DNA of 34,858 nucleotides, taken from positions 1 through 34,858 of the forward strand of contig JACPCP010000006.1 in assembly GCA_016179745.1 (NCBI GenBank), in the 5' to 3' direction. Below, piece after piece: positions 2 to 20,000 of this stretch. Every line of letters begins with the position of its first letter. Position 1 is the first letter of the stretch. The notes beneath the pieces are model-generated. The model saw nothing but the letters and a program-made list of their open reading frames with translations, did no database searches and had not been told where the DNA came from. Made by a program: the position numbers and the translations under genes. The stretch comes from Candidatus Omnitrophota bacterium. Its GTDB lineage: Bacteria; Omnitrophota; Omnitrophia; Omnitrophales; JACQLI01.

Positions 2-886
2 AAGGAAAAGGCGCTGGAGCTGAAGAACGGCCAGGTTCAACGTTACGAACAATATAAAGGTCTTCGGGATGTTCGGATCAAATTGCAGGCGGAACTGCTT
101 AAGAACCCCGCAAGCGAATCGGCGAGAAAGGCATTCCATCAGGCGCTTCTGGCAGAGGGAAAAGCCATCAAAGGGCTGACTGAGGGGGTTAAGGCAATTG
201 CCGAATATGACGCAGCCTTGGCGCTAACAGTGGCAGCCGCTGGTAAATTTATTCGTGGGCCAACGGACAAAAAATTGGAGCAGTCCTTCAAGCGTCAGCT
301 TCGACAACTAGACAATCTAATCAAATCTCTTCCTTCGGAAGCCTCAGTGCAGTCCCGGGCCCGATACGAAAAGGCCCGAATTGAAAGCAATATAGAGCAA
401 CTTCTCAGCGTCAATAAACGCCTCAAGGACCCCACGGTTGCTCTTGGCCGGCTCGAAGAAGTTCTGCTTGCTGAACAAAAAGCGTTGCAGGCGCTCCCGG
501 CCGGTGAACAGATCCGGGCGCTCCAGTATTTAGACACAAGAGACGTGATGCTGCCTCTGCTTTACCAAGATCTAGGCCGCCAGTTTGCGGAGAATCCGAA
601 AAACCCTGGCAGCTTGGCTTTGATTTCGGGCGAACCGGAATCCTCCGTGATGCGGCTGAGGGCAATACCGAGGCGCCCCGGGATGCCCACACCTTCCTCG
701 AGCTTCTTGCGGAAGGGAATCTTTCACGGGATTACCTCCGAACCCTTTCGGACGTGGTCGGAAGACAGTTTCTCCAACGGCATATCTTTGATTCGTTCAA
801 TCAGCACTTTGCGGCTCTTTCGCTCCGAAGAGGCGAGGACGGGCGCACGGCCCGGGCCGAAACCTTTAAGCTCCTTAACGATTTGA
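2..886 (+). CDS. 5' fragment of the giant gene, in frame 2 (partial at window edge)
   Basis: This frame is open from the first bases of the window, so the gene starts upstream. The product is highly charged and almost entirely helical, with repeated Lys/Glu/Gln/Leu runs, like the helical arrays of the large ORF that follows. Convincing coding character ends around 600-655: past that point this frame turns Arg/Pro/Ser-rich and runs to a stop at 884-886. Meanwhile frame 1 becomes protein-like from about 602 (for example TFLELLAEGN and SRDYLRTLSD), although it has no ATG, GTG or TTG between its upstream stop (505-507) and 754. I therefore read this as the upstream part of the same giant gene, separated by a -1 change of frame, and not as a separate gene. 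No enzymatic motif is visible. The last 70-90 residues of this ORF are probably not real protein. Confidence 0.6.
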   Translation, partial: KEKALELKNGQVQRYEQYKGLRDVRIKLQAELLKNPASESARKAFHQALLAEGKAIKGLTEGVKAIAEYDAALALTVAAAGKFIRGPTDKKLEQSFKRQLRQLDNLIKSLPSEASVQSRARYEKARIESNIEQLLSVNKRLKDPTVALGRLEEVLLAEQKALQALPAGEQIRALQYLDTRDVMLPLLYQDLGRQFAENPKNPGSLALISGEPESSVMRLRAIPRRPGMPTPSSSFLRKGIFHGITSEPFRTWSEDSFSNGISLIRSISTLRLFRSEEARTGARPGPKPLSSLTI

Positions 887-3800
887 TTCGGGGAGATTCC
901 AAGAAATACGAAGGGAAGGAATTAAGAGAGGTGGTCAGAGAACTGGGTCTTTCCGAAGAGGCCTTGCCCGAGCCGCTTCGTGACTATCGATTTGATAAGG
1001 AGGTAAGGAACGGATTTGCCTTGTCGCTTGCCCTCACCAGTCCGATGCCCTCCATCCAAAGACAGCTTCTTGGCCAGGAAGCCCTCCCTGATCAGGAAGG
1101 GCTCAAGGCCGGAGAGACCCGGGTTCGGACGGTTACGGGAAATCTCGTTCTTGATCCTTCTGCGATTGATGTTCTCCATAAATCAAGCGGACGGATCGCC
1201 AGTTATGAGGCCTTGGTTGTGAATCGGATCCTGGGCGGGGTTGAGAAATTCGACTCAGCGGCAAAAGTCGGCGAATTTACCGGCAGATTGAAGGAGCTTG
1301 CCAAACTCAAAAAGGAGCGTGGTGAAGATTTGGATCCGGCCCGTTTTGAGGGGGTCGATCCGGACTTGCTCTTAACGGGTGTTCGTGAAGAGCTCCCAAT
1401 TGAACTTCTGGGGCAAGAAGGCTTGAGGATTCTTCCCAAAGACGCCCGGCTCAAATTAATTCTGGATGGGCATGAGGCCTTCCAGATCGATAGTCAGGAA
1501 AAGAAATTTAAACTGACTCCTCAAGAAGTCGAATTCCGTGACGCCTATCAGAAGCGAGACGCCAGGATCCGCCAGCTTGAACAGGAATTGAGGGTCCCGG
1601 AGATCCAGCGTCAGGCAAAAATGCTTGGGGACTTGGCAAAGATTGCGGAACTTCATCTGAGTGGGGAAGATCAGCCTGTGAAAATCTTTGCCGGGAAAGA
1701 ATTCCGTGGAGAGCTCGTTGATTTGTATGCCGGAGTGGGCGAGAGCCTCGCAAACCAGATGTTCCACCTTTATGAGGCGTTGTTTGAGGCAGGGGTGGTC
1801 AAGTTTCGGGAGGGCACCAAAGACGGAAAGACAGTGTTTGAGGTTGTTGACGCTAAAACAAACAAACCGGTTGACCTTTTCGGCGACGGAGCGTTTGGCA
1901 AAAAAGAAACACTCGATTCCTTTGCGGATTACCTTGACTTCAGAAAAAGGGCGATTGTCCGAGAAGAAGCGGACCGGTTAATCGAGCACCTCCAACCCAT
2001 TCTCCAAGTTCAGACGGCTGAGCTTAATTCGGTAGAAAAACTTGCTCCCGAGAAGGCAATCGAGACACTCGTCGAAGCGAAACCTGCTGATGCAGCAACC
2101 TTTAAGGCAGATTTCCTCAGAGAGCTTGGAGCATTAAAGGCTGAGGTCGACGAACAAAAACGGATGGCGATTGCGAGAAAATTGGTCAACGTTCTAGGTC
2201 AAGGGAACCTCTCCCTCTTTGGAGGCCACGAAGGGGATATGGCGGTCCGGAAGATCAATCTTGCCCGTTCGCTGATCGAAGATGCTGTTACATCAAAGGG
2301 CCGTATTGATAAGTCACTACTCACCGTCACAGATCAGATTCTCCAGCTCTGCAGTCCGTGTGTGAGGAGTGTTGTTGAGCGCCTCATGCAGGATGGAAAG
2401 GGAAGCCTTCTCAGTTTGATGGTTCTCGGGAGCCTGCTTAAGGAAGCGAAGGTTGAGGCAGACGTCCTTCAAGAATTCCCGGCGCTCCGGGCCGCCCGTG
2501 CGATTTCAGAGGTCGGCTTGGGTTCGAAGGGGGTCGAGAAAGTTCTCGGAGGGAAGGTAGTCGAGGAGGGGTTCGAGCGGCAGATTGCGGAGTATCTCTG
2601 GCAGAAGGTGGTGAATGGAGAGAGCCTTAAATCCGGATCGGATGACGCCGGCAGTCTGATTAAGGACATGGAAGGTCTGGTTGCCTTGGGTGAGCGCCTC
2701 GCCAACGACGCTTACAACGGCGGCTATCAAAACGTCGGGGCAGACGGAAAACCGGTGAGGGTTGCCGAAACTAAATTTATCGCAACCAGATTGGCGAGCG
2801 AAGCTGCTAAATTGATCGAGCAGGGAATTGTCGATCAAGAGATCACCGTTCGTATCAACGGGCTTCGTAAAGAACTAGTTCAACGTGTCAATGATATTTA
2901 TGAGGCATTAAACGCCGCCACGGCTCCAGCAGCAGAAAAAATTAAAGGGGCTGAAAAAGTTGAGAAAGTTGAAAAGGCGATGAGGATTTATGAAGAGGCC
3001 TTCATCCAGGGCGAAAAGGACGGGACCGTTCCGGCAGGGAAACGGGCCGATTTCTTCAGCCTGATCCGTGAATACATCGCCGCAAAAGAACTTTCAGGCG
3101 AATGGCAGACGGATCTTTATCTCCGGCTCTTCGGCTACACCGAAGGGGGCTTTAAGATTTTCGATCCCCGGCAGTATTTGACCAAAGAGCAAATGGCCCA
3201 GAACTGGGATGTGATCCTGTATGCTTACATCCTGTATGAAAGCACTCGAAAGGTGAATGCAAAGGAACCCGGCGGTGACGGGATCTGGATAAAACCGGAT
3301 CAGCGGAAAATGTTTATCGAAATGAAGGTCCTCGGTGATCAAGCGCCCAATGCCAACCTCTCGATGGGAGGAGGCAAGACGCTTGTCTCGGCCGGTCTGG
3401 CCGCCATTCACGGGATTAACGTGATTTTGGTTCCCAATGCCTCGCTCGTGGAGCAATGGATGAAGGGGACAGAGAAAAGGTTCTTCGAGGAACTTTCAGG
3501 GAAGAAGGTGGTGGATGCCGCCACCCTGATCAAGGAATTTAGGGAAGGGCGCAGTGAAGAGGCCCTGGATAAATTGATTCAAGGGTTAAAGAATACAAAT
3601 CCTCATGACAAGAGCGGAGCTCTCTTTATTATCGACCGCAATTCCGTCGGTCACTTGATGGGGCATTTGCGCACGCAGGGCCACCGGCGTTACGCCGAAT
3701 TTATGGACGCCTACGCCCGTTCGAACCGCCTCATTGACGAAGTCCACCAGGTGGTGGATCCCATGCACTTTATTGTCGGCGGTGATGTTCAGCTCGCCCG

Positions 3801-6800
3801 GCTGGCGCTCAAGAATTTCGCCGTCCTTGAAAAGGCGGCCGAGGTGGCGTCTGAAATCCTCGTCTTCGAAAACGACCCTGAGGCTATGAAGAAATATGAG
3901 GATGGAAAACACGTTCTTGTGACCTCAAATGAGGATACCTTTAAGAGATATCGTGATTCCAAAGACAACAGGGCCGCCCTTCTGGTTCGGGACGGCGAAT
4001 TGGAGAAGTGGACAGGAGACAATGTTATCGACGTCTTCAAAAAGAATCCGGCCATCGAAGCACTGAGCAAGCCCTTGAGCGAGAAGGAAATTGAGCCCCT
4101 TTATCCGGTTGAGTTGTGGTCTATCTTGAAAGCCCGGGTGACCGATTTCCGGAATCCTGATCAGATTTTCGAGAAGATCCTGGTGGCCGGCGGGGTCTGG
4201 CTCGTGGACGGGCAATACAAGCCTGTGAGCCGGGAGGGTCAGGTGGAGCGTGAACTGATTATCGAAGATACCCCGTGGCTGATTGGTATCGCCAAAACCG
4301 TGGGCGATGCGGTGAGACACATTGAATCAAGTCCCGAACTGCGGAGCCGGTATAGCGCCATTTTGGAAACCTTGAGAGAGAACGTTCTGCACGATCCGGG
4401 GACCATCGAAATTACCCAAACGACGACGGCCACGCCGATCTTTGATCTCGCAGTCACCCGGGGTGAAGAAGGAGGGTTGGTAATCGGGCAATCCGGAACT
4501 GCCAAGGGAGTGGCGGTGCCGCTTGAGGTTTACACAGGAAGAAAAACAGCGGCGATTGAGACGGCCGGCAAGACGGGCGCTTTCATTTTGGAACACCTGA
4601 GATCGGCGGGCGACCTGAAGAAATACAACTCGTTTGATATCACGGAGGTTTCGTCTCGAGGAAGCGTTGAAGAGGTGGCCCTCCAGCGCCTTGCGATCGT
4701 TAAAAAGTCTGCAAAGGGCGCCTCAGACCTTAAATTTAAAAATGGGGCGCATACGTTCGTGGCGCTCAGAGGGCAGCATGAGATTAATCATCTAAAGAAA
4801 GCTCTCGAGCTCGAGAAAGATCCGGGTCTGATTATCAAGGTCATCGACGGAAATACTGAAAACCCAAGGTCGGTTGTGGAGCAGTTCAATCAAGAGGTTA
4901 AAGCCTTGGCAGAGAGTAAAGATTCGAGAAAGATCGTTCTTTTGACCAACCAGCGGGGATTGACGGGACTTGATTACCAGGTCGAGGCGAATTTCCTCCT
5001 TTTTGATCCGACACTGCCCGAGATGCAGGTGATGCAGAGCTTGGGCCGGGTTGGGCGAACGGTCGCCAAGGGAGAAGAGGCAGGAACTACGTTCAGGAGT
5101 CACGCCACGATCTTTCTCGATTCGGATTATGTGACGAGGCAGCTTCGGGTTTTTGAAGGGAGTGAGAACCGGGCCCGATTCGACAAATGGGTTGAATTCT
5201 TCCAGGAACGGCTTCAAAACGACACGACCCGGGAGGGGCTCGAATTTTGGGTGCGGCAAGAAGATGGCAGACAGCATTTTGACCTGAGGAAGAAGGGGGA
5301 GGTTGCGAAGACGGGTTGGGAAAAGTCGGACATGATCGAGCTTTTGAGAAAGGCGCAAGGGGGCGTTGAGAAACTGACCGTTGAGGAAAAACTGATCCTT
5401 TCGATCGCCGTCAACACCGCAAGGGCGAACAGCGATTCGGTCAAGTCCCTTCTTGAACAGTTGTGGACCTTTCGGCTGATGATGGATCCTGTGAACGCCG
5501 CATTGTCCGAGGCCCTGCGGCTTAACCGGCAGGAGGATGTGAAGCTTCTCGGGGAATTCAGCCAGCATCTCCACCGGCATTGGAAGGGCTCGGTGGGAAT
5601 GGAGCTTGCAGATAATTTCTCAAGCGGTAAGGAGTATGTGAAAAGCGTCACCTTTGAGCGGGTTGAGACGGCGGCCCGGGAGATCGAGGCCTTCACAAGC
5701 GGCAAAGGGTATCTCAAGGGGGACAAGCTTACTCCGGAAGTCAAAAAGATTCTTGAGGAAGCCATTCAGGTCGCCCAGACGGTGAAGGAGCAGGTGAGAA
5801 GCGACTTTGACACGATTCAGTCGAACACGCCGGAATTCGAGAAGGCTTTCCAGGGAAGTCTTCCGATGGAATCGAAGGCCCGGGCCCGGGCGATGATTGC
5901 CATTGCGAAGAAATTTGCCCTGGACATTCTGCCGATTGAAACAACCCGGGGCCCGGAAAAAGGGAGCTTTGAAGGGGTGCGCCGGCACGCCGAAGTCAAA
6001 CTGGCGAGCGGGGAGCAGCGGCGGTTCGTTGAGGCGAATCGGGCGGTGAAAGATCATCTCAAGCCGGGCGAGAGAGGAATTTTCCGAAGTTCAATGGGTG
6101 AGAAGGGGCTTGAGGTGAAGTTCCGGGGTGAGACGGTGAGTCTTGCCGGTTTGAGTGCGCAGGCGCAAAACATTCTTGCCGTCTTTCCGGTGGTGGCCGG
6201 CCAGATGTCCGATTCGGGACAACTGTCTTTGGCTCCGGACTTTGATGCGATCATCAAGGAAGCCGGAGACGACCTTACGCTTCCCACCCTTGCCTTACTG
6301 GCCGGGCAATACCCTGCCTTTGCCCAGGTCTTTGGGGCCGGGGACCCCGCCCAGTTGGGTCTTGCCTTAAAGGTTCAGGATTTGATTCAAGCCATGAATC
6401 TGGATGAGAAGGATTGGAACGTGATTGCCCCCTCCTTGGTTCGGAATGTGGCGAAAACCGTTACGGGACACAAGATCGATTGGAACGAGATCAACGAGGC
6501 ATTTGAAATGGCGCCGAGTGAGGAGCAGCGGGTCAAAGTATTGCTGGAAAAAGTCTCGGGTCTCAGTGCCGAAGGGGCCCAAAAGATTGCCAGACAATCT
6601 CGTGAAACGCCGAACCTTCTGAATCAACTCAAGAACTACGCCAAGCAGCATGACCAGGTTCGAAAGGGAGTGGCGGCGGTTTTGGGCAATCAAGGAATCG
6701 GGGAAGGGTCCCTGGTGAATCTTGATCTTGTGGCCGTCTGGATGGCGGCCAAGAGCTTCTCTTTACGGCCTCAGAGCGAAAAAGAGCCGGGGAAACTGAA

Positions 6801-9800
6801 TGAAGACTACTTGGCAAAACTGATGGCGGCTGCCGTCGTGGCTTCCGACCGGATTGACGTGAGCGTTCGTCAAAAGGCGGCGGTGAAATTCGGTCAAGAT
6901 TTTAACGTAGCCCCCGTCTCCGGACTTGCAGGGGGCTGGGAGGATGTCTCGAAGATTGCCTCTCTCCGGGCCCTTGCGACGGGAAATGTTGCGGGTATCG
7001 CCTCTCAAGTTCAGGAGGTGAGATCTCTGGTTAAGACACATCGGGAGACGCTTGAGGCAAGCCCCATCCCGCTCAGCGATATTGTGAAAGTCCGGATTCA
7101 TTGGGGTCTTGGCGTTGATCGTATCACCGAACAAATTGAGATTTACAAAAAGTTGAGCCGTCTCCTCAAGATCGATTCTCTCGAAGATATGGTCCTCCTT
7201 CCGGAGAAAGTGAAGGCAGCCGAGCTTGCGAAACGGATTGAGAACTCCATTACGTTTTTACAAGGGAGTGGATTCAAGATCGAGACGATGAAGGAATACA
7301 TTGAAATCGTAGAGGCCCTCAAGATTGATCTCACGAAGGATTTCGAGCCATTCAATGTGGTTGAAAGCGTAAAAACCCGATTCTTACATTTTGACGCAAA
7401 GCAGACGGCGTGGACTCTCACAGGAATGGAACAAGACGAAAGGGTTGTTTTGGAGAAGGTTCCAGAAAAAGCGGAGTTGAAGGTTGGATTTGAAAACGGG
7501 ATGTGGCTCGTTCGTCTTGCGAAAGAACACTCCCTGCGCTTTAACCCTGAGGTCGTTGAATATGAAAATCTTCAAGGTGACCGGAGACTCCTCTCCGGCC
7601 GGATCAAACGCCGGGAGGCAATCTTCGATAGCGTCGTGGGCGGAAACGGGGAATTTGCCAAGATCAACTGGATGGGACCCGAAATTCCCTTGCGAATTCA
7701 GACGGGCTCTTCGGTTAGCGGGAAGAAACTTTTCCGTTTCGGGACCGAGCTCTCAGAGATTGAATCAGGCCGGCTTGAAGTGATTGTCGATGAGGCAAGC
7801 GGAGCCAATCATCTCTCTTACGGCTTTAACATCCTCGGCTTGGACAATCTAGACGCTGGAACCGTCCTGCGTGACGGAAACGGGAAGGCCTTGGTTTATA
7901 ACGGGAGAGAAGTTGTCCTGCCTCCAAACTCTCAATTACTACCCTTGATTGGCGCTGAAGCCATTCTGAAATCGGTCAACGCTCGGGGTGAGCTGAAGGA
8001 TGTCGCTCGGATTGCCTTGAACACTGGCGAAATCACTGAAATTGACAGCGGACTGTCGCTCGATCAACTTCTCAATTTTGCCCACTTCGAAGAATACAGG
8101 CAGGGAATGACCGATCGTGAACGGGAAAAGATTATGCTCCACCGTCGGACTGCCTACAAGCAGATGGTTGCTTCACAGATTTACATGGATCTTGAGACTG
8201 ACGATCAACGGAAAAAGGTGACCGAATGGTTCGACCAAAAAGCGCCGCTTCTCAATGAAGTTTCTTTAGTGAACAAAATCGAGGAGTTTATTCAGAAGGA
8301 AAATATTTCTAACGACACACTGATGCAGACAATCAATAGACTCAAAACAAGATTCCGGATCGCTCAAGAAAGATTGGTTGAGTTGCTCAAGAAAGCTGAA
8401 CTTTCAGAATCGGCCAGCACGGTTCCGGCAGTCCTGATGCAGGCGATGGAAGAGATGCAGTTTGATGCTCCGGAGACACAAGAGATCGTTATCGCCCTTG
8501 CCGAAGCTTATTCCAAGGGGAATGAGGAGCTCAGGCGGATTCTCTTGACCGAGGTTCCGCATACCGTGATCAGCCGGCTTGCCAAGGAGCTTGTGAAGAA
8601 AGGACCTGCGAAAGCTGAGTTTGAGGAATGGCGCAGCAAGAGAGTGACAAAAGGGCAGTCGGCAAGCAAATTGAGCGAACTTGTCTGGCTAAAATCAAAA
8701 GCAAGCAAGCTGACTTCAGGAGAAGAGATTCGGCTCAAACATATTCTGACCGTCTTCGAAACTCCGGAGTATAAATTTGGGCATAAGGATCTAAAGATCC
8801 TGAAGACCCTCAATGGGGCGCATGAGTTTGTGGCAAGCGACGAGGGACAGAGTGAGATCTTGAAGCGGATTGAAGAGACAAGATCGTCCGCCCTATCGGA
8901 CTCTGAAAAGATGCAGTTGTTGGGCAATATCCGCCAACTTGCGAGGAAGGCGGGTATTTGGGATCTCTTTGCCTACCAGCGGCTCTTTTACCTTGCCGAT
9001 CCAAAACACAATGCGTTGCTCGCCGCTTATGAACAAAAAGATTACGAAGCAGCCGCCGAGATTTTTGTAATCGAATTGATGCAGACCGATGACACCGTCC
9101 GGGGAATGGCGAAGGACGACCCACGCCGGCCGCAGTTCGTCAAAAAGATGGCCAGCCTTCTTAGAAACCGTGATGAAGGAAAGGCTGATTTTATTGCGCT
9201 TCATTTTGGACGGGGTTCTGAGATGGCCAACCTGAAGGTGGCCCAGGACCGTATTGCAGAACTCGTGAGTCAGGGATGGTCCGAAGAGATGGCCCGGATC
9301 CAGGCCAATCAAGAGTGGCGGCGGGAAAACGGTTACCGCGACGTGCCATTTCCCTCCATCGTGTTTCATGGCGATGCGGCCCGCAAGCTCGGACAATTCT
9401 GGAACTTCGTCGGCAATGATTGGGGACAGATTTCCGGAGCGGAAACCTTTATCGCCGCCAATTTTACCAAGGCCCAGGTAAAAGGGGTGAAGAAGATTTT
9501 GTCCCGGACCGGCCTCTTGGTGATCGACCAGCGGTGGGTGGACCAGTCGGCTTTCCACGAAGAACTTCACCTGATCTATCCTCGCCCCGAGATGCTGAAT
9601 CCCGACAGTGACCCTCGAAGTGAGGAACAAATCAACTTCCTGGCCCAGCTTCTCTCCCGAAGTCTGGACCGTGAGACAGGGCGGGCTTATGACCTTCAGA
9701 TGATCTACAACAAATGGGAAGAGTATGCGAAGCAGAAGCAGATGGATCTCGACATCATGCGGGGAGCTTTTAATGGGGTGGTTTATCTCTTGCAAACCTT

Positions 9801-12800
9801 GAACAACCCGGCGTTGATTCAGAACATTTTGCGGAATACCCCTTCCGTAGAGCATCTCCTCTACTGGCACCTCTATTCGCCGAAGCAGTTGCGCGATCTT
9901 GTCGCACGGAGTTCTGTCTATGGCGCCTATAAGAATGCGAAACCGGAAGATCGCAAGAAGATCGCTGCGAAGAAGGCGGCTGAGATTTCGAAGGATCCCC
10001 CGAATGCCCCCAACGAATTGCGTGAGTTGATCAGAGGGGCACATCAGGCGCTTGATTACGACACATTTTATACGTTCTTTTATGACGTCACGAGCGCTTT
10101 CCTCGAAGGGGTAAAAGATAAGACGGACGAGAAAATCCTCTGGGTCGGGCAATTTCTTGGAGATCTCCAGACATTCTTGAACGATACGCTTAAAAAGAAA
10201 AGTGACGGACTGCCTGAGGATGAGGTGATCAGCGAAGGGGACCTAAAAGAGTTCCATCAGCGCTGGGAGAAATGGTCCGTAGAGAAACAGAAGAGGGTGA
10301 CGGAACTCTACCCTGAATACGAGCGGCTCGAAGAGTTCGCCTCCCGAGCTCTCCACGTCCTGGAGTGGAACTCTGCAAAGAATGTGGTGATCTGGAACTA
10401 TGTTCGGGAAAACTATGTTGCTAAGAAGGGAGAACTCGTGTCCTTTGGGGATCTGATGGAGAAACCTGACGAAATCTTGGACCGCAAAAAAGGTATTTTC
10501 CTAGCACAAGTCGCAAAGACTGGCGAGGAAAAGGTTCGTCTGGCTGACCAAATTAAGCATGCGAGACAAAAGAAGGAATTCAGCTTGTTCGAGACCAAAG
10601 CGGCGTGGATCCAGGGACTTTTTGTCAGCATCGGAGCGAGGAGCAGTGAGTCTTCAATGCTGGGAGAATTCCTGAAATACATGGAACATAACCACCCGCC
10701 ACATTCGGATGGCAGCGTCCAAGTCCTGATCAGCTGGCGGGATACCGGCATTGATGGAGTCCTCAATGCGGATCAGCTGCGAATTCCCCATAAACGCGGT
10801 CTTACCCTTTACCACAAAAAGGATGGGATTGAAGAAAAGGACTTCAAGGATGGGATTGGAGTCCGGGTGAGTTATGACGAAGGAGAAATGACCGAGCTTG
10901 ATCGGGCAGAGTATGACCCGGTCACCGAGGAGGGATTCAGCAAAATCAATAGCTTTATGGAAGAGCAGATGAAGAAGGGGCGGCATGTGAAGATGGATGT
11001 TGTCGTGCCGAGACCGGGAAAAGAAAACGAGAAGGTAAAATTCGAGCTTGAACTCGTGCCTTGGCTCGCGGTTCACAAGGCGGCTCAAGCGAAAAACAGT
11101 GAATTTCTGAAACGGGTACTTCCCAGAGAGGACCTTAATTTCGACACCGGAGATCTTGAGGCCCTCGCCTCTATCGCGGGCGTGGGGGAGCTTGAGGACC
11201 TTAAAGTAAGCGAGCCGGAATCCGCAATACTGGGGCTCAGCTCAGATATGATCAAAGCCCAACAAAGAGTGAAGGAAATTCTCGGCAATCCAGACGAACT
11301 GAAGAGACTCCTCGAGACTCTCTCACAGCTACGGATTCGTTATGATCCCAAAAAGATCGCTGACTCGGCACTTACACCTCTTGAAGCTGCTCAGCGGCTC
11401 AAGGCCGCCTTCAAGTTTACTGAGGACATCACTTTGATACCTACGACGGAGTCTTTCAAAAGGCATATCCTCGCAGTCACGGTCGGGGAGGGAAAACAGG
11501 TTTTCGTACAAGTCAAGATCCCGGGCCGCGAACGGGCCCTCGTGAGTCGGAACGACTACGACATGGCCCTTCAAGGTGTTCGGGCCTACGGCCCCGAATC
11601 TAATTTTGAGAAACCGCTTCTTATGGCAGAGGCCCAGGGAGGCATTACCCTTTATGACGGTGAGGTCCGCCATCAATTTTCGAAGGATGAACCTTTGCGT
11701 GTCCTGGTTTTCGAATACCACGATGCGAAGCGATTCATTTCCACGGGGATGACTACTGTGGGCACGGCTGAAGACAAGGTCCGAATCGATGACGAATTCC
11801 TGAAGACAATCCTCGAGGAACGTAAGCAGCCACCGACTCCCGACAGTTTGAAGACTCTCAAAGAAGAAATCCTGAGAAAGCTAGTTAGATCCGGTTCGAT
11901 GATTTTGGACATAGGTATTAAGCCCTATCACACGGACGAAAAAGGGCAGTACAACACGGACCTTCATGCCGGAAACTTCGCTTTAACAAGAGACGGAAAG
12001 ATTATCATTGAAAACGATTTTGAGAATTCAGAGGTAGTTGGATTGAAAGCGAATGATAACTTGAGTATCAAGCATATTGAGGTCACACATGACAATGAAG
12101 ACTTGAAGCATTCCCGGGCGGACGCGCTCGCCTTCTTTATTGAGAAACTCCAGAAGGCTTATGGTGTTGGTGAGACAGGAAAAGAAAGTGGGAAATTGAC
12201 CGCAAAGCTCCCCAATGAAGAAGGAGAGCTGGTTGACGTTGGGTCTGCCGATTTCTCGACGCTTGAAGCTGAAGTCCCTGAGCAGAAGCGGCCCGAATTG
12301 CGGAAGACCGAGAAGCTTGGCCCCGAACCCCGAGCGGAGTTGCGCGGGGAAGTCAACTTGGTCCCGTTCGATCGGCTGAAGCTTACACCGGAGCAGATCT
12401 TGGCCCGAATCGCGGAGATTCACGCCACGATCCCGGATTGGCAGAGATACAGTGACCCGAATCATGAGCTTTCTCTCCCAAGTATGTTGGAGAGCGGCCG
12501 CATCAGTTGGAAGGATTTCATCTTCGCCGTGAACCCAGAAGGCCAAGTGGCCGGTTACCTCATCCTCGAGGCGAACGGATACCTCACGTTAATGGCGGTC
12601 GATCCGAATCAGCGCCTCAAAGGAATCGGGGCTGAGCTGGTGATGGCAGCCTTGGAGAAAGCAGGGCAGAGGGGAATTCGCGAAGTAAGGTTTGAATATC
12701 GTGACAAGACGGATCAGGCGAAATTCTGGGAGCGAATGCATCAGAAGCTTGCAGGCAATGGCTTCGGGGTTGAGGTGACCAAGTCTCCGAGTGAAAAGTA

Positions 12801-14118
12801 TGACAATGGTGATCAGGCGGTCATTGTCAGTTATGTCCTTCCGGAAGAACTCCTGTTGAAGAACCTCCTCAAAAATCGGGCGCGTGAAGCTTTCCCGGGA
12901 GAACCGCGGGCGGAAGTGCGGTTTGTTTCGAGAGGGGTCAAAACGGAAGAGCGAGAAGAAGAGGCGATTGGGGAGGAGCCCGCAGCGATGGGTGGGGCGG
13001 AGGTCGAGTTTTTAGACCGCCATCGCGGACTCGTTGAAGAGGCGATGAGAGAGCTTGAAGAAGCGAAAACTAAAGAGGAGCGGGGGAAGATTTTGATCGA
13101 AGCGGCGGCCAAGCTGGCCGAGGCGGCGGGAATTGACGGATTGGAAGGCTCCATCCTGGCCGGCCTTGCAAGAGGGGAGGTCCGTCTGGCGGAACCGGAC
13201 GGCCGGATTCTCACGGACGAACGGGGCTATGTCAATGTGAAGACCGGTGAGATTGTGATCAATGCCGCCAGCCTTCCCTTCGCTGGAGAATTTCTGGCTC
13301 CGGTCCGGTCCGCCGAGGGACGGTCTGAAATCCGAACTGCCCGGTCGCTCCGATTGGCTGGGCTCCTGAAGGATATGGGTGTGATTCTGGCCCACGAAAC
13401 AGAGCACCTGACGCAGGAGATTAAAGTCCCCGGCCTCGGCCATGTCGAGTCTGAAATGGGGGCGATTCGGGCTGAGATTCTGGCGATGCGAGTGATCGAC
13501 CCGGTGGGTTACGGGCCGGCCCTCAAACTGCGTGAAGCCTTGCTCAACATCCTGGAGATGGGGCCTCAGCCGGACCAAGGGATTACCCCTGATATCATCC
13601 AGCTGACTCAGCTTATTATCACCGGCGGCGTGGACCCCATCCGGGGCCTTGAAGACCCGTCGTCCCAGCTCAACGCTCGGGTTTACGTGATGGATAAGGA
13701 TTTTGTCAAAGTGCCCGGAGCCCGGGTCTTTGAAACTCTTGAAGTCCTTCGCCGCATAAGAGACGAAGTGGCCAAGCTGCCGAGCCGGCAGCACGTCTTC
13801 TTCCTTGTCCCGCAGAACCGGATTCTGACACCGGCTGTCCGTCAAGTCATGGACCAGATCCAGACCCGTGGCGCCGGCATCATGGTGATTCCGGATGCCG
13901 GGCCGAGCCGTGCGGACGTTCGTGACCTCCACAACCTTGCGCTGATCGCAGCCTATCTGGGGGTTACGGAATTTGAACGGATGATGCGGGAGGAGCTTGG
14001 GATTCGAGGCCGGGATGCCCAAGGTTTCTTCAAAGTCATGGAGTATTACCGCCATCCCACGATTCGCATCCTCCTCGCCGAGATGAAGGCGACCGAAGAG
14101 TTCGCCTCCGCCGCCTAA
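754..14118 (+). CDS. Giant multidomain protein: SF2 helicase, HExxH, kinase-like and GNAT domains
   Basis: The ORF gives 4454 residues from the first available GTG, but coding character continues upstream to about 602, so that start is artificial. Residues 1-840 are helical. A helicase core follows: P-loop SMGGGKT at 870-876, DEVH box at 995-998, TNQRGLTGLD at 1398-1407 and QSLGRVGR at 1428-1435, which are SF2 motifs I, II, V and VI with a SecA/DEAD-like flavour. Residues 1480-2230 are helical and 2230-2436 beta-rich. There is an HEELH zinc motif at 2935-2939. Residues 3530-3810 look kinase-like (APH/ABC1 type): K3588, hinge FEYHD 3653-3657, DLHAGN 3736-3741, NDFE with D3755. A GNAT acetyltransferase spans 3870-4030 with QRLKGIG at 3953-3959. 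A second zinc motif, HETEH, is at 4214-4218 with E4232/E4234 as possible third ligand. EPRAELR, EPRAEVR and RSEIR lie at domain edges. The motifs are seen directly. The overall function and location are unknown because the true N-terminus is missing. Confidence 0.9.
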   Translation: MVGRQFLQRHIFDSFNQHFAALSLRRGEDGRTARAETFKLLNDLIRGDSKKYEGKELREVVRELGLSEEALPEPLRDYRFDKEVRNGFALSLALTSPMPSIQRQLLGQEALPDQEGLKAGETRVRTVTGNLVLDPSAIDVLHKSSGRIASYEALVVNRILGGVEKFDSAAKVGEFTGRLKELAKLKKERGEDLDPARFEGVDPDLLLTGVREELPIELLGQEGLRILPKDARLKLILDGHEAFQIDSQEKKFKLTPQEVEFRDAYQKRDARIRQLEQELRVPEIQRQAKMLGDLAKIAELHLSGEDQPVKIFAGKEFRGELVDLYAGVGESLANQMFHLYEALFEAGVVKFREGTKDGKTVFEVVDAKTNKPVDLFGDGAFGKKETLDSFADYLDFRKRAIVREEADRLIEHLQPILQVQTAELNSVEKLAPEKAIETLVEAKPADAATFKADFLRELGALKAEVDEQKRMAIARKLVNVLGQGNLSLFGGHEGDMAVRKINLARSLIEDAVTSKGRIDKSLLTVTDQILQLCSPCVRSVVERLMQDGKGSLLSLMVLGSLLKEAKVEADVLQEFPALRAARAISEVGLGSKGVEKVLGGKVVEEGFERQIAEYLWQKVVNGESLKSGSDDAGSLIKDMEGLVALGERLANDAYNGGYQNVGADGKPVRVAETKFIATRLASEAAKLIEQGIVDQEITVRINGLRKELVQRVNDIYEALNAATAPAAEKIKGAEKVEKVEKAMRIYEEAFIQGEKDGTVPAGKRADFFSLIREYIAAKELSGEWQTDLYLRLFGYTEGGFKIFDPRQYLTKEQMAQNWDVILYAYILYESTRKVNAKEPGGDGIWIKPDQRKMFIEMKVLGDQAPNANLSMGGGKTLVSAGLAAIHGINVILVPNASLVEQWMKGTEKRFFEELSGKKVVDAATLIKEFREGRSEEALDKLIQGLKNTNPHDKSGALFIIDRNSVGHLMGHLRTQGHRRYAEFMDAYARSNRLIDEVHQVVDPMHFIVGGDVQLARLALKNFAVLEKAAEVASEILVFENDPEAMKKYEDGKHVLVTSNEDTFKRYRDSKDNRAALLVRDGELEKWTGDNVIDVFKKNPAIEALSKPLSEKEIEPLYPVELWSILKARVTDFRNPDQIFEKILVAGGVWLVDGQYKPVSREGQVERELIIEDTPWLIGIAKTVGDAVRHIESSPELRSRYSAILETLRENVLHDPGTIEITQTTTATPIFDLAVTRGEEGGLVIGQSGTAKGVAVPLEVYTGRKTAAIETAGKTGAFILEHLRSAGDLKKYNSFDITEVSSRGSVEEVALQRLAIVKKSAKGASDLKFKNGAHTFVALRGQHEINHLKKALELEKDPGLIIKVIDGNTENPRSVVEQFNQEVKALAESKDSRKIVLLTNQRGLTGLDYQVEANFLLFDPTLPEMQVMQSLGRVGRTVAKGEEAGTTFRSHATIFLDSDYVTRQLRVFEGSENRARFDKWVEFFQERLQNDTTREGLEFWVRQEDGRQHFDLRKKGEVAKTGWEKSDMIELLRKAQGGVEKLTVEEKLILSIAVNTARANSDSVKSLLEQLWTFRLMMDPVNAALSEALRLNRQEDVKLLGEFSQHLHRHWKGSVGMELADNFSSGKEYVKSVTFERVETAAREIEAFTSGKGYLKGDKLTPEVKKILEEAIQVAQTVKEQVRSDFDTIQSNTPEFEKAFQGSLPMESKARARAMIAIAKKFALDILPIETTRGPEKGSFEGVRRHAEVKLASGEQRRFVEANRAVKDHLKPGERGIFRSSMGEKGLEVKFRGETVSLAGLSAQAQNILAVFPVVAGQMSDSGQLSLAPDFDAIIKEAGDDLTLPTLALLAGQYPAFAQVFGAGDPAQLGLALKVQDLIQAMNLDEKDWNVIAPSLVRNVAKTVTGHKIDWNEINEAFEMAPSEEQRVKVLLEKVSGLSAEGAQKIARQSRETPNLLNQLKNYAKQHDQVRKGVAAVLGNQGIGEGSLVNLDLVAVWMAAKSFSLRPQSEKEPGKLNEDYLAKLMAAAVVASDRIDVSVRQKAAVKFGQDFNVAPVSGLAGGWEDVSKIASLRALATGNVAGIASQVQEVRSLVKTHRETLEASPIPLSDIVKVRIHWGLGVDRITEQIEIYKKLSRLLKIDSLEDMVLLPEKVKAAELAKRIENSITFLQGSGFKIETMKEYIEIVEALKIDLTKDFEPFNVVESVKTRFLHFDAKQTAWTLTGMEQDERVVLEKVPEKAELKVGFENGMWLVRLAKEHSLRFNPEVVEYENLQGDRRLLSGRIKRREAIFDSVVGGNGEFAKINWMGPEIPLRIQTGSSVSGKKLFRFGTELSEIESGRLEVIVDEASGANHLSYGFNILGLDNLDAGTVLRDGNGKALVYNGREVVLPPNSQLLPLIGAEAILKSVNARGELKDVARIALNTGEITEIDSGLSLDQLLNFAHFEEYRQGMTDREREKIMLHRRTAYKQMVASQIYMDLETDDQRKKVTEWFDQKAPLLNEVSLVNKIEEFIQKENISNDTLMQTINRLKTRFRIAQERLVELLKKAELSESASTVPAVLMQAMEEMQFDAPETQEIVIALAEAYSKGNEELRRILLTEVPHTVISRLAKELVKKGPAKAEFEEWRSKRVTKGQSASKLSELVWLKSKASKLTSGEEIRLKHILTVFETPEYKFGHKDLKILKTLNGAHEFVASDEGQSEILKRIEETRSSALSDSEKMQLLGNIRQLARKAGIWDLFAYQRLFYLADPKHNALLAAYEQKDYEAAAEIFVIELMQTDDTVRGMAKDDPRRPQFVKKMASLLRNRDEGKADFIALHFGRGSEMANLKVAQDRIAELVSQGWSEEMARIQANQEWRRENGYRDVPFPSIVFHGDAARKLGQFWNFVGNDWGQISGAETFIAANFTKAQVKGVKKILSRTGLLVIDQRWVDQSAFHEELHLIYPRPEMLNPDSDPRSEEQINFLAQLLSRSLDRETGRAYDLQMIYNKWEEYAKQKQMDLDIMRGAFNGVVYLLQTLNNPALIQNILRNTPSVEHLLYWHLYSPKQLRDLVARSSVYGAYKNAKPEDRKKIAAKKAAEISKDPPNAPNELRELIRGAHQALDYDTFYTFFYDVTSAFLEGVKDKTDEKILWVGQFLGDLQTFLNDTLKKKSDGLPEDEVISEGDLKEFHQRWEKWSVEKQKRVTELYPEYERLEEFASRALHVLEWNSAKNVVIWNYVRENYVAKKGELVSFGDLMEKPDEILDRKKGIFLAQVAKTGEEKVRLADQIKHARQKKEFSLFETKAAWIQGLFVSIGARSSESSMLGEFLKYMEHNHPPHSDGSVQVLISWRDTGIDGVLNADQLRIPHKRGLTLYHKKDGIEEKDFKDGIGVRVSYDEGEMTELDRAEYDPVTEEGFSKINSFMEEQMKKGRHVKMDVVVPRPGKENEKVKFELELVPWLAVHKAAQAKNSEFLKRVLPREDLNFDTGDLEALASIAGVGELEDLKVSEPESAILGLSSDMIKAQQRVKEILGNPDELKRLLETLSQLRIRYDPKKIADSALTPLEAAQRLKAAFKFTEDITLIPTTESFKRHILAVTVGEGKQVFVQVKIPGRERALVSRNDYDMALQGVRAYGPESNFEKPLLMAEAQGGITLYDGEVRHQFSKDEPLRVLVFEYHDAKRFISTGMTTVGTAEDKVRIDDEFLKTILEERKQPPTPDSLKTLKEEILRKLVRSGSMILDIGIKPYHTDEKGQYNTDLHAGNFALTRDGKIIIENDFENSEVVGLKANDNLSIKHIEVTHDNEDLKHSRADALAFFIEKLQKAYGVGETGKESGKLTAKLPNEEGELVDVGSADFSTLEAEVPEQKRPELRKTEKLGPEPRAELRGEVNLVPFDRLKLTPEQILARIAEIHATIPDWQRYSDPNHELSLPSMLESGRISWKDFIFAVNPEGQVAGYLILEANGYLTLMAVDPNQRLKGIGAELVMAALEKAGQRGIREVRFEYRDKTDQAKFWERMHQKLAGNGFGVEVTKSPSEKYDNGDQAVIVSYVLPEELLLKNLLKNRAREAFPGEPRAEVRFVSRGVKTEEREEEAIGEEPAAMGGAEVEFLDRHRGLVEEAMRELEEAKTKEERGKILIEAAAKLAEAAGIDGLEGSILAGLARGEVRLAEPDGRILTDERGYVNVKTGEIVINAASLPFAGEFLAPVRSAEGRSEIRTARSLRLAGLLKDMGVILAHETEHLTQEIKVPGLGHVESEMGAIRAEILAMRVIDPVGYGPALKLREALLNILEMGPQPDQGITPDIIQLTQLIITGGVDPIRGLEDPSSQLNARVYVMDKDFVKVPGARVFETLEVLRRIRDEVAKLPSRQHVFFLVPQNRILTPAVRQVMDQIQTRGAGIMVIPDAGPSRADVRDLHNLALIAAYLGVTEFERMMREELGIRGRDAQGFFKVMEYYRHPTIRILLAEMKATEEFASAA

Positions 14119-16066: not shown

Positions 16067-16441
16067 ATGAATAAGAAAAGAATCCTGGTCGTGGATGACG
16101 AAAGGGACCTCGTGGACTCCATCAAGACGGAGCTTGAGGAAAATGAGTATGAGGTCCTGACGGCCTATGACGGCCACGAGGGCCTTGAGAAGGCGAGGAA
16201 AGAGAGCCCCGACCTCATGATCCTTGATTTGATGCTCCCCAAAATGGACGGCCACACGGTCTGCGGCCTCCTGAAGCGGGACGCCCGTTATGCCAAAATG
16301 CCCATCCTGATGTTCACCGCCAAGGCCCACGAGGACGATCGCAGGCTCGCCCAGGAGGCCGGCGCCGACGCCTACCTCACCAAGCCCTTCAATCCGCAAA
16401 GTCTCATGGATTGGATCCGAAACCTCCTAAGGTCATGCTGA
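16067..16441 (+). CDS. Stand-alone CheY-like receiver protein
   Basis: This is a canonical single receiver domain: VVDDE at the N-terminus, phospho-acceptor Asp in LMILDLMLPKMDG, Thr in LMFTAKA and Lys in YLTKPFNP. There is no output domain, so it would act by protein contact as PilG/PilH or CheY do. I prefer the ATG at 16067, which has GCAGGAA just upstream; TTG 16052 and ATG 16055 are in the same frame without better ribosome sites. The stop codon (16439-16441) overlaps the start of pilB. It shares the phrase VCGLLK with the preceding receiver, consistent with a local duplication followed by divergence. Confidence 0.9.
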   Translation: MNKKRILVVDDERDLVDSIKTELEENEYEVLTAYDGHEGLEKARKESPDLMILDLMLPKMDGHTVCGLLKRDARYAKMPILMFTAKAHEDDRRLAQEAGADAYLTKPFNPQSLMDWIRNLLRSC

Positions 16442-18054
16442 AGGTAAGGCAGTCACTCGGGGAGAGCCTGGTTGAGGCCGGGATGATCACGGCAGACCAG
16501 TTGGCCAAAGCCCAGGCCGAAGAAAAGCGGACAAGCCATCGCCTCTTGAAGGTCCTCGTCAAAATGAATCTCGTGACGGAGGAGGATCTCGTCGTTTTCT
16601 TGAGCGGAAAATTGGGCATTCCCCGCATCGAACTCGCCAATTACCTGATTGACCCCGCCGTGATTGAACTTGTTCCCGAGTCCTTTGCCCGGAAACACGA
16701 CCTGATCCCGGTCCTTAAGATCGGAAACCGCCTCACCTGCGCCTTGGTGGACCCTTGGAATGTTTTTGTCCTGGATGAGCTCAGGATAAAAACAAAGCTG
16801 ACGATTGAGCCGGCCGTGGCCACCGGGGCGGAAATTAAAAAGGCGATTGAAGAACACTATGGGGCGAAGGAGACAATGGAAGAACTCCTCCGTTCGATCG
16901 GTGACGAAAAGCCGGGGCTCGAGACCGGCGGGGACGAGACTGACCCCAGGAAATTGGAGGGCATTGTTAAGGAGCCGGCCGTGATCAAACTGGTCAATCT
17001 GATCATCCTTCAGGCGGTCAAACAGGGGGCGAGCGACATTCATCTGGAACCGGAGGAGGACCGGCTTAAAATTCGCTTTCGGGTCGACGGGATGATGCAC
17101 GAGGTCCCGTCTCCGCCGAACCATTTGAAATCGGCGGTGGTCTCCCGGATTAAAATCCTGGCGAATCTGAACATTGCCGAACGACGACTCCCCCAAGACG
17201 GCCGGTTCAGTCTCAAAATAGAAAGCAGGGAAATCGATATCCGTGTCTCCGCCATGCCCACGATTTACGGTGAAAACGTGGTGCTCCGCCTCCTCGATCC
17301 GTCAAGCGCCCTTCTTTCTTTGAGCCAGATCGGATTTCCCAGGGAAATCCTGGAGAAATATGGGACGCTCATCCGGCGTCCTTATGGAATCATCCTGGTC
17401 ACGGGCCCTACGGGGAGCGGAAAGACCACCACGCTCTATGCCTCGTTAGACAAAATCAACTCGGTTGAGAAAAATATCATTACGATTGAAGACCCCGTGG
17501 AATACCGGCTTTCGGGGATCCGCCAGACGCAGGTCAATCCCAAAGTCAATCTCACTTTCGCCAACGGACTGCGGTCAATCCTTCGCCAGGATCCCGACAT
17601 CCTCATGGTGGGAGAAATCCGGGACCGGGATACCTGTGAGATCGCGATCCAGGCGGCCTTGACGGGCCATCTTGTTTTTTCCACCCTTCACACCAACGAC
17701 GCCGCAGGCGCCATCACCCGGATGATCGATATGGGGGCCGAGCCCTTTCTGATCGCCTCCTCGGTGATCGGAATCTTGGCCCAGCGGCTTGTGAGGAAAG
17801 TGTGTCAAGATTGCCGGGGCAAGGGTTGCCCGAAATGCCTCAAGACCGGTTACCGGGGGCGAATCGGGATTTACGAACTCCTGATTCCGGATGAAAAGGT
17901 GCGAAGTTTGACGGTCGCCAAGGCGGGCGTGGATGAGATCCGGAAATATGTCCGCTCAACCGGCATGACAACTCTCAAAGAAAACGGCATGCATCAAGCG
18001 AAAGCGGGTGTTACCACCCCCGAAGAAGTCCTTCGGGTGACTCAGGAGGAATAA
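16435..18054 (+). CDS. pilB: Type IV pilus / type II secretion extension ATPase (PilB/GspE)
   Basis: This 539-residue hexameric ATPase powers pilin assembly from the cytoplasmic side of the inner membrane. An MshEN/GspE N-domain occupies roughly residues 1-150. The ATPase core shows Walker A GPTGSGKTT at 324-332, Walker B ILMVGEIRDRDT and the His box LTGHLVFSTLHTNDA. Four cysteines (457, 460, 465, 468) in CQDC-RGKG-CPKC form the zinc site typical of extension ATPases and absent from the retraction ATPase PilT. The ATG at 16435 overlaps the previous stop by seven bases, indicating coupled translation; a TTG at 16411 is in frame but lies deep in the previous gene. pilC follows directly. Confidence 0.95.
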   Translation: MLKVRQSLGESLVEAGMITADQLAKAQAEEKRTSHRLLKVLVKMNLVTEEDLVVFLSGKLGIPRIELANYLIDPAVIELVPESFARKHDLIPVLKIGNRLTCALVDPWNVFVLDELRIKTKLTIEPAVATGAEIKKAIEEHYGAKETMEELLRSIGDEKPGLETGGDETDPRKLEGIVKEPAVIKLVNLIILQAVKQGASDIHLEPEEDRLKIRFRVDGMMHEVPSPPNHLKSAVVSRIKILANLNIAERRLPQDGRFSLKIESREIDIRVSAMPTIYGENVVLRLLDPSSALLSLSQIGFPREILEKYGTLIRRPYGIILVTGPTGSGKTTTLYASLDKINSVEKNIITIEDPVEYRLSGIRQTQVNPKVNLTFANGLRSILRQDPDILMVGEIRDRDTCEIAIQAALTGHLVFSTLHTNDAAGAITRMIDMGAEPFLIASSVIGILAQRLVRKVCQDCRGKGCPKCLKTGYRGRIGIYELLIPDEKVRSLTVAKAGVDEIRKYVRSTGMTTLKENGMHQAKAGVTTPEEVLRVTQEE

Positions 18055-19122
18055 ATGCCCGCCCTCTTGGAACTTTTTCAAAAGGTGGACTTGGAATCAA
18101 GGGTCGTCTTCAGCGTCCAGCTTTCCAACCTCTTAAATGCGGGGATCCCTCTCCGGGCAAGTTTGGGCACGCTTGAGAATCAAACTGAAAACAAGCGCTT
18201 GAAAAAGGCCGTGGCGGAAGTCTCACGGAGCGTGGAGGCGGGTGAGAGTTTTTCGGAGTCCCTGGCCCGGCACCCGTCGATTTTTTCGAATCTTTTTGTC
18301 AGCATGGTCCGGGCCGGCGAGGCGACGGGCCGGCTGGACACGGTGCTCACTCGTTTGGCCGTCCTGACGGAACAAGAGGCGGATCTCCGACAGAAAATTC
18401 AGGGAGCGCTTTTTTACCCCGCCATTTTGCTGACCGCCGGCCTTCTCGTGTCGCTTTACATCGTGACTTTTTTGATCCCCCAGTTTGCGGAGATCTTTCT
18501 TCGGGCCGGGATCGCTCTTCCGCTCCCGACGGAACTTCTTTACCGCTTCGGGGCCGGCGTCAGACAGTTCTGGCATTTCGGTCTTTTGTCGGCCGCCCTC
18601 CTCAGCGTGGCGGCCAGTCTTTACGGAGGAACCGCTCAGGGAAAGATTCACTTTGACAGATTCAAGCTCAGGCTGCCGCTCGTGGGTCCTTTATTTCGGA
18701 AGGCTGCGATCACCCGGTTTTCGAGGACCCTGGGGCTGCTCGTGGAAAGCGGGGTGCCGATCCTCGAGTCCCTGGAAATCGCCAGGGAGATGATTTCGAA
18801 TGAAGTTCTGGGGCGGGTGATCGGGAACGTCCGTCAAGCGGTCGAAAAGGGGGAAAAGATTTCCGCTGCACTCAGGACGAGCGGGGAGTTTCCACCGGAT
18901 GTGATCCAGATGATTGCCGTAGGTGAGGAGACGGGAAGTCTGGACCCCATGCTGGCGAAAATCGCCGATTTCTATGACCGTTCGATCGGCTATACCGTCC
19001 GGAAATTGACCACCGTTTTGGAACCCTTGCTGCTCGGGGTCCTCGGCGGTCTGGTCGGTTTTATGATGGCTTCGATGCTGCTCCCGATTTTCGATATGAT
19101 GAAGATCCTAAGGCGCCCCTGA
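18055..19122 (+). CDS. pilC: Type IV pilus / type II secretion platform protein (PilC/GspF)
   Basis: This 355-residue inner-membrane protein is the platform that couples the PilB motor to the growing pilus. Two GspF repeats of about 120 residues are visible: the first contains FSVQLSNLLNAGIPLRASL and FSNLFVSMVRAGEATGRLD, the second FSRTLGLLVESGVPILESL and VIQMIAVGEETGSLDPML. Membrane segments lie near AILLTAGLLVSLYIVTFLIP, GLLSAALLSVAASLYG and a C-terminal LLLGVLGGLVGFMMASM. Length and motif order are normal. The start codon follows the pilB stop immediately, with AGGAGGA just upstream. Confidence 0.95.
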   Translation: MPALLELFQKVDLESRVVFSVQLSNLLNAGIPLRASLGTLENQTENKRLKKAVAEVSRSVEAGESFSESLARHPSIFSNLFVSMVRAGEATGRLDTVLTRLAVLTEQEADLRQKIQGALFYPAILLTAGLLVSLYIVTFLIPQFAEIFLRAGIALPLPTELLYRFGAGVRQFWHFGLLSAALLSVAASLYGGTAQGKIHFDRFKLRLPLVGPLFRKAAITRFSRTLGLLVESGVPILESLEIAREMISNEVLGRVIGNVRQAVEKGEKISAALRTSGEFPPDVIQMIAVGEETGSLDPMLAKIADFYDRSIGYTVRKLTTVLEPLLLGVLGGLVGFMMASMLLPIFDMMKILRRP

Positions 19123-19127
19123 AAAGA

Positions 19128-19140
19128 GCCGATAAAATAA
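19128..19140 (+). promoter_or_regulatory. GCCGATAA element before the major pilin gene (copy 2)
   Basis: This is the second exact copy of the 13-mer GCCGATAAAATAA. An upstream TAAGGCGC (19109-19116) sits exactly 11 bases before GCCGATAA, the spacing of sigma28 promoters, though only its first three bases match TAAAGTTT. Predicted transcription would start near 19142, about 40 bases before the GTG of the pilin gene. An internal promoter here would let the major pilin be made in excess over the assembly proteins. The element is seen; the promoter role is inferred. Confidence 0.4.
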
Positions 19141-19183
19141 GCAATCATTGGCGGCTTGCCAAAATGGGAAGAAAGGAAAAAAC

Positions 19184-19624: not shown

Positions 19625-20000
19625 AGGAAACACCCGCCCGTCTTTTCTCGAAAAGGGTTTCACGTTACTCGAGATCCTGATCACCACCCTCGTGTTGGCG
19701 TTGGGGGTATTTGCCCTGTCTCAGGCCTTCAATGCGGGCGTTCTTTCTTCAACCGACGCTGAAAATGCCGATCTCGCTTTGAATATCGCTCAGGCCAAAA
19801 TGGAGGAGCTTCGAAACACGAATTTTACCAGTCTGGCCTCGAGCGGGCCCACCGCCGATCCCGGCTTCCCGAATTTTAATACGACCGTCACCGTCAGCGG
19901 AAGCGATCCCAAAACGATCACGGTGGCGGTGGCGTGGAATGTGCTGGGTCCCGCCTCCACGACGAACGTTACGCTGACAACCTTGAGAGCGAATTACTAG
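19590..20000 (+). CDS. Minor pilin, PilV/GspI type
   Basis: The mature part begins after EKG with FTLLEILITTLVLALGVFAL, carrying Glu at +5. The helix motif ALNIAQAKMEELRN resembles the AxxLAQ-type segment of GspI/PilV minor pilins, and a small beta-rich C-domain of about 60 residues follows. The start is uncertain: ATG 19590 and ATG 19599 both lie inside the end of the preceding pilin gene and no later in-frame start exists, so the genes overlap by 26-35 bases and the leader is long (over 20 residues). Neither start has a clear ribosome site, which suggests coupling to the upstream gene. Confidence 0.82.
   Translation: MPPMPGRTRSLKGNTRPSFLEKGFTLLEILITTLVLALGVFALSQAFNAGVLSSTDAENADLALNIAQAKMEELRNTNFTSLASSGPTADPGFPNFNTTVTVSGSDPKTITVAVAWNVLGPASTTNVTLTTLRANY

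Follow-up and report, generated by a model that had tools for sequence, protein, structure and literature searches.

The giant open reading frame

The stretch of DNA analysed here (the window, 34,858 nucleotides (nt)) is one entire contig, G000:C6:1-34858, from the draft genome of a Candidatus Omnitrophota bacterium (G000; 1.50 Mb, 25 contigs, 79% complete). Its 5' part potentially encodes a giant protein with helicase-, kinase-, acetyltransferase- and peptidase-like parts. An earlier note, made from the sequence alone, had described a frame of 4454 amino acids (aa) at 754..14118; this frame, on the (+) strand with a GTG start, is real and every residue number given for it was correct. Since the contig begins with base 1 of the window, the giant gene is truncated on its 5' side. 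What the window holds is its 3' portion, encoding the C-terminal part, at least 4,500 aa, of a giant protein. The main features of the gene are listed below, with residues numbered from the GTG at 754 (P0001 numbering).

2..610 (+), coding stretch in frame 2, which probably belongs to the giant gene and is set off from the rest by an apparent frameshift near nt 590-610 (in frame 1, stops precede nt 508)
508..14118 (+), open frame for the giant protein, 4536 aa, from reading of the open reading frames (ORFs)
2986..5874 (+), divergent superfamily 2 (SF2) helicase/ATPase module, aa 745-1707 (motifs, weak Pfam matches, Foldseek)
8866..9933 (+), HEELH domain, aa 2705-3060 (HEELH 2935-2939, nt 9556-9570; plus E2957/E2958) (alignment, hidden Markov model (HMM))
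10117..11199 (+), HNHP domain, possibly JAMM-like, aa 3122-3482 (HNHP at 3312, nt 10687-10698) (alignment)
11200..12303 (+), protein-kinase-like domain, aa ~3483-3850 (K3588, D3736, N3741, D3755) (alignment, AlphaFold2, Foldseek)
12499..12735 (+), GNAT acetyltransferase domain, aa 3916-3994 (QRLKGIG 3953-3959) (Pfam)
13171..14115 (+), terminal HExxH domain, aa 4140-4454 (HETEH 4214-4218, nt 13393-13407) (alignment)

Frame 1 has stops before nt 508 and is open from there, while frame 2 is open from 2 to 886 and is the sole open frame upstream. The homology of frame 1 to the relatives in genomes G008, G006 and G030 sets in at nt ~610, and the relatives continue unbroken for up to about 2,000 aa upstream of this point. 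When the frame-2 stretch was compared with relatives, no significant similarity was found. The simplest reading of nt 590-610 is a single-base indel, either in the assembly or in the gene. The continuation of the frame past the 5' side, as proposed in the earlier note, holds in this sense, but only via a frame change.

Relatives and shared architecture

Relatives were searched in 97 related genomes. The helicase module was found in 10 of them and the C-terminal 1,605 aa in 18, and the homologous frames measured 3,000 to 39,000 aa, with a maximum of 39,033 aa (117 kb). This longest frame (G019:C47:74879-191978) is open, runs off its contig and bears the terminal HExxH domain. The relatives are co-linear at 31-36% identity across thousands of residues, and the alignments revealed a shared core consisting of the helicase (745-1707), the HEELH domain (2705-3060), a variable block and the terminal HExxH domain. 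The block between the HEELH and terminal domains contains HNHP, kinase and GNAT domains in the window, HNHP and GNAT in G006, and matches to M20/M28/M42-like peptidases in G009 (two genes) and G030; HNHP is also present in the block of G036, G017, G014, G018 and G032. A search of Omnitrophota genomes for the same domain order, which the earlier note had proposed, thus found relatives of largely the same order. Its statement that no described family has this order has to be narrowed, since these relatives belong to the same Omnitrophota order and giant Omnitrophota ORFs have been published (PMC10066038).

These comparisons bear on the view that the frame is a decaying or artefactual fusion, produced by the assembly or patched together as a pseudogene from dead domains. 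Such a fusion would be in keeping with the apparent shift of frame near nt 600, with the isolated fragments of the C-terminal tail found elsewhere and with the divergence of some enzymes embedded in related ORFs (a phosphoglycerate kinase, PGK, and a second triosephosphate isomerase, TIM), but long stop-free frames occur in many genomes, catalytic residues are conserved and the homologues remain co-linear at 31-36% identity. Because of this conservation the artefact reading is already largely refuted, and we regard it as very improbable.

Short isolated ORFs matching the tail of the terminal domain alone were seen at G017:C59:32239-32394, G023:C11:965-1150 and G042:C126:8393-8497; they are perhaps remnants of recombined giant genes.

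Domains of the giant protein

The helicase module bears SF2 motifs I, II, V and VI in order, at GGGKT (872-876), DEVH (995-998), TNQRGLTGLDYQ (~1400-1411) and QSLGRVGR (1428-1435), and the motif residues are invariant in an alignment of 7 giant relatives. The Pfam families ResIII (0.0025) and Helicase_C (0.04) match the window module in the right places, under their cut-offs, and Helicase_C matches 4 of the 7 helicase members, at best with 4.8e-4. In the Foldseek search with the AlphaFold model (predicted local distance difference test (pLDDT) 67, predicted template modelling score (pTM) 0.45), the list consisted mostly of SF2 proteins, with no E below 1e-3, and a PDB profile search gave matches confined to AAA Walker A regions. 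The conserved motifs, the weak Pfam matches and the SF2-dominated Foldseek list support the helicase of the earlier note as a divergent SF2 core. The arrangement of Walker A, DE-x-[DH], GM[TS]GT and motif VI is similar by eye to that of SecA, but not by profile; membership of SecA was rejected, as hhalign against a single E. coli SecA sequence aligned the Walker A region alone (E 0.032, probability 1.6%). An extra HExxH at 1342, inside the helicase, is unconserved in relatives and was attributed to chance.

In gluzincins, the HExxH motif is accompanied by a downstream Glu. The HEELH domain shares ~49% identity with three relatives; in an alignment of 7 giants the motif residues H, E and H and the following EE..N are invariant, and the HMM of the domain matches 13 giants. 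Across a scan of 84,980 species, one genome per species, this domain had three close relatives only, all of them Omnitrophota. The terminal domain (~300 aa) has invariant H, E and H and a near-invariant downstream Glu across 13 giants; it was found in 17 of 384 phylum genomes, all from the order of the window, of which 47 genomes were covered. Judged by sequence, both HExxH sites of the earlier note stand as conserved motifs with a downstream Glu (HEELH in 7 giants, HETEH in 13), as in gluzincins. Weak SprT-like matches (E 0.014-0.044) were obtained in three relatives, as well as a PDB match of 0.07 to projannalysin.

The HNHP domain is confined to the same order (8 of 384 phylum genomes). HNHP and D3334 are invariant in 7 giants, and SxxD is present in 5 of the 7 at a 12-residue spacing. 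The JAMM/MPN pattern is E ... HxHP ... SxxD with a spacing of ~7 residues, so that the domain, with its longer spacing, may be JAMM-like. It had no Pfam or PDB sequence match. The PDB sequence search with the whole protein gave no match either, and profile searches of the PDB, run with alignments of the HEELH, terminal, HNHP and kinase domains, gave no meaningful match.

The kinase-like domain carries the K of KIPG (K3588), DLHAGN (3736-3741) and NDFE with D3755. Its relatives come from 22 of 384 genomes and many families, in frames of up to 32,526 aa. In a 20-member alignment N3741 and D3755 are always kept, D3736 nearly always, and K3588 in most rows. The AlphaFold model (pLDDT 76.8, pTM 0.78) was compared with the PDB by Foldseek, and the 50 best matches all had the protein-kinase fold (best E 1.5e-5, probability 1.00). 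The predicted structure confirmed the kinase fold, and the GNAT domain, also named in the earlier note, was recovered by Pfam above the gathering cut-off (PF00583, 2.8e-7; PF13673 and PF13508 match too). The kinase-like domain (L130-L153) also recurs in giant frames of many families of the phylum, mostly in frames that lack the R[AS]E.R motif described below.

A recurring motif and a shared chain end

Two marks that go beyond the earlier note, a short motif R[AS]E.R and a chain end [AS]A, were found in the window protein:

12331..12345 (+), motif 1, RAELR 3860-3864, between kinase and GNAT
12907..12921 (+), motif 2, RAEVR 4052-4056, between GNAT and terminal domain
13321..13335 (+), motif 3, RSEIR 4190-4194
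13909..13923 (+), motif 4 (R[AS][ED].R), RADVR 4386-4390
14104..14115 (+), C-terminal ...ASAA, chain end

In 27 long ORFs (150,595 aa), R[AS][ED].R was seen 40 times, against 4.2 in shuffled sequences and 4-8 for permuted motifs, which rules out chance as its source. Of 19 giants, 16 have a copy at a distance of 20-240 aa on the N-terminal side of the terminal HExxH. The [AS]A end closes all 19 giants and 7 of 417 other frames. At the DNA level the motif is frame-locked: all 24 exact matches have the sense orientation and keep to the reading frame, with none between genes, and other genomes encode the same residues by other codons. The motif is therefore a feature of the protein, and a free DNA repeat comparable to the Rickettsia palindromic elements was ruled out as its source. 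It was also ruled out as a general property of the phylum for the distant families sampled, with no copy in 35,370 aa from three more distant genomes. As in a processed polyprotein, the motif recurs at module borders, though some domain borders lack it.

Motif-bearing ORFs and glycolytic enzymes

In the ~300 kb of G000 that were sampled, R[AS]E.R occurred 53 times against 3.4 expected (15-fold over), and 52 of the 53 copies fall in six very large ORFs. Read further, the motif-bearing ORFs measure 14,650 (still cut), 5,231, 5,897, 3,924, 2,354, 2,254 and 864 aa. Among those of G000 that reach a stop, the window protein included, the [AS]A end is present in 6/6, compared with 2/218 other ORFs. 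The N-terminal export-type domain of this class was detected in 169 of 384 phylum genomes, including every searched genome of the order. Stretches of large ORFs with this domain were read in 11 other genomes, and each contained the motif.

Several of these ORFs contain glycolytic enzymes. The 2,354-aa ORF on contig C1 (L164:3271-10332) has a signal peptide and 11 R[AS]E.R motifs and ends ISA; it bears a TIM at 1181-1441 (E 2.8e-75), flanked by motifs at 1169 and 1446, whose catalytic Lys, His and Glu motifs are intact by eye. The 14,650-aa frame, cut by the contig end (G000:C8:20934-64883, L194-L196), has 21 motifs, ends VAA and holds the only PGK of the assembly, three GAPDH C-domains and a divergent TIM. 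Altogether, 80 inter-motif segments contain TIM (2), GAPDH C-domain (3), PGK, class II aldolase, GPI, iPGM, PGM/PMM, PALP and an epimerase. None of the domain matches whose position was checked spans a motif; the motif does not separate every domain, because several domains share one segment in the 14,650-aa ORF. In searches of the whole assembly, TIM, PGK and above-threshold GAPDH were found solely within motif-bearing ORFs, and free-standing TIM is present in 15 relatives. With 79% completeness of the assembly, TIM, PGK and GAPDH may also exist as free-standing genes in the fraction that is missing. Both the PGK and the second TIM of the G000 class are divergent.

These data could mean that this Omnitrophota order makes exported giants with R[AS]E.R and an [AS]A tag, which would be cut by a dedicated protease, i.e. 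a bacterial polyprotein system carrying effector-type and, in G000, glycolytic enzymes (TIM, PGK, GAPDH, aldolase, GPI, iPGM). We consider this possible but doubtful.

In another ORF of the class (L170:5353-19998, P0005), an iPGM-like region looks circularly permuted by eye, with its C-terminal half first, followed by RAEVR.

Leader, export context and proposed function

The complete relatives of 12,698 aa (G009) and 18,673 aa (G017) open with a conserved leader, YHSxxKxWxLKxLSLFVIxTFxxTQSDxxLxFAY, followed by DKIHYMQDL, and each carries leader and terminal HExxH domain within one ORF. From its sequence the leader reads as a Sec signal peptide. Of the 47 genomes of the order, 24 have it, most of them in a single copy. 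In G000 it sits on a frame truncated by the edge of contig C16, and this contig is therefore the probable location of the 5' end of the window gene. A simple hydropathy scan revealed hydrophobic segments in the N-terminal parts of relatives, upstream of the part homologous to the window. On its 3' side the giant gene is followed by an MNT/HepT pair, two tRNAs, two response regulators and a cluster of secretion or pilus type:

16411..23465 (+), type II secretion system (T2SS)/type IV pilus (T4P) genes (T2SSE, T2SSF, pseudopilins, PilM/N, PilO) (Pfam)

Taken together, these features lead us to propose, tentatively and with rather less than even confidence, that the window frame is the C-terminal part of one giant, Sec-exported, modular and possibly cleaved multi-enzyme protein. 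Its architecture would comprise a signal-peptide leader, a long upstream part, an SF2-type ATPase, the HEELH domain, an exchangeable enzyme block and a terminal HExxH domain ending in Ala-Ala. The protein would be exported, with the T2SS/T4P cluster lying just downstream, and would act at contact with another cell, while its ATP- and acetyl-CoA-dependent enzymes would work inside this second cell or in a maturation compartment. At the R[AS]E.R sites the chain may be matured or cleaved, which would release the kinase, GNAT and terminal modules, and the shared [AS]A end may be a recognition tag. The export route, delivery, action on another cell, cleavage and target are all points that we infer. 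A candidate protease is the terminal HExxH domain, which the motif sets apart. If the chain is exported, its ATP- and acetyl-CoA-dependent modules fit work inside another cell or release before export. The two shared marks hint at an undescribed processing or export system. The suggestion of a giant effector or processed polyprotein, made in the earlier note, is thus still a conjecture, to which the conserved signal peptide, the swapped enzyme block, R[AS]E.R and the [AS]A end add support.

Several points weigh against this proposal. Export would demand delivery into a second cell, because the kinase, helicase and GNAT need cytosolic cofactors. Neither a transmembrane nor a signal sequence was found in the window part, which is cut by the contig edge, and T2SS genes were not found beside relatives, of which few flanks were read. 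The giants G009 C65 and G015 have no motif in the part read, and G009 C21 has none near its terminal HExxH. R[AS]E.R could also serve as a linker or as an epitope for binding, or be what domain shuffling has left behind. Finally, expression, export and cleavage are predictions from sequence.

The leader and the hydrophobic segments in the N-terminal parts of relatives would equally suit an uncleaved giant surface machine, i.e. a coat- or adhesin-type predation protein as for Velamenicoccus, with tethered enzymes, in which R[AS]E.R would be a linker or a chaperone or sorting epitope and [AS]A a sorting end. This is also the published view of Omnitrophota giants (PMC10066038). However, the window part has no recognised adhesin domain and is built of cofactor-dependent enzymes, and the motif recurs at module borders in the window protein and in others; we find this explanation conceivable, with considerable doubt.

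The enzyme content itself could indicate a cytosolic or periplasmic housekeeping multi-enzyme, for example in protein quality control, that is not aimed at other cells: an ATPase combined with peptidase-like sites resembles quality-control machines, and the motif-bearing G000 proteins contain ordinary glycolytic enzymes. The signal-peptide leader of relatives, the exchangeable middle block and the patchy presence of the protein (helicase in 10/97 genomes, terminal domain in 17 genomes, in an order of which 47 genomes were covered) make this unlikely.

Comparison with known systems

In Velamenicoccus archaeovorus, another member of Omnitrophota, a giant ORF for a protein of 39,678 aa has been described (Seymour et al. 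2023, PMC10066038). The window protein and its relatives are similar to the published giants in phylum and, as far as the relatives are concerned, in ORFs of >20 kb, in the leader and in the hydrophobic stretches; for the published ones a role in predation has been proposed. The window part measures 13.6 kb, being cut by the contig start, and the frames of relatives reach 117 kb. The published giants are described as showing little conservation, few annotated domains and roles of surface type, whereas in the class of the window the core and the terminal domain are conserved and kinase, GNAT, HNHP, R[AS]E.R and [AS]A are present.

By analogy only, MARTX and polymorphic toxins are similar in their long exported carrier, exchangeable enzyme modules and the idea of internal processing, except that here the chain end is conserved and the middle is variable. 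Neither a cysteine-protease domain nor an adjoining immunity gene was recognised in the window, the neighbour being the MNT/HepT pair. Classification as a polymorphic toxin, which has a variable C-terminal tip and an immunity gene, was rejected, as the terminal domain is conserved and MNT/HepT comes next. Viral polyproteins, again an analogy only, also have several enzymes per chain with a recurring short motif between them; the window protein differs in being bacterial and probably exported, and its cleavage is a proposal.

Omnitrophota giants reportedly reach 85,804 aa, and many are said, in a 2023 preprint, to carry divergent SecA-type DEAD helicase domains and to lie near type II secretion genes, as the giant gene of the window does. 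To our knowledge, this preprint does not report a punctuation motif, an [AS]A end, the kinase or glycolytic polyprotein-like ORFs. In the open-access literature no report of R[AS]E.R, the [AS]A end, glycolytic ORFs or a polyprotein in Omnitrophota was found; within this literature, giant Omnitrophota ORFs are already known, and the R[AS]E.R/[AS]A marks and the glycolytic ORFs appear to be new.

The giant proteins of Omnitrophota are among the largest known and have so far had few annotated domains and no clear function. The conserved core, the kinase fold, the exchangeable block and the two marks lead to testable predictions on cut sites, class membership and a tag-reading protease or export component. 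Should the marks define a processing system, bacteria would have a polyprotein route that also yields glycolytic enzymes, a surprise to cell biologists and metabolic modellers alike.

Neighbouring genes

The MNT/HepT pair, of toxin-antitoxin type, lies directly after the giant gene (window 14150-14768). A second MNT gene copy, 61% identical, is located on contig C16 (L126:9296-9598). Within the T2SS/pilus cluster, an ORF at 20530-21357 of the window encodes an F5/F8 type C (discoidin) domain, and its product is a possible adhesive pilus component.
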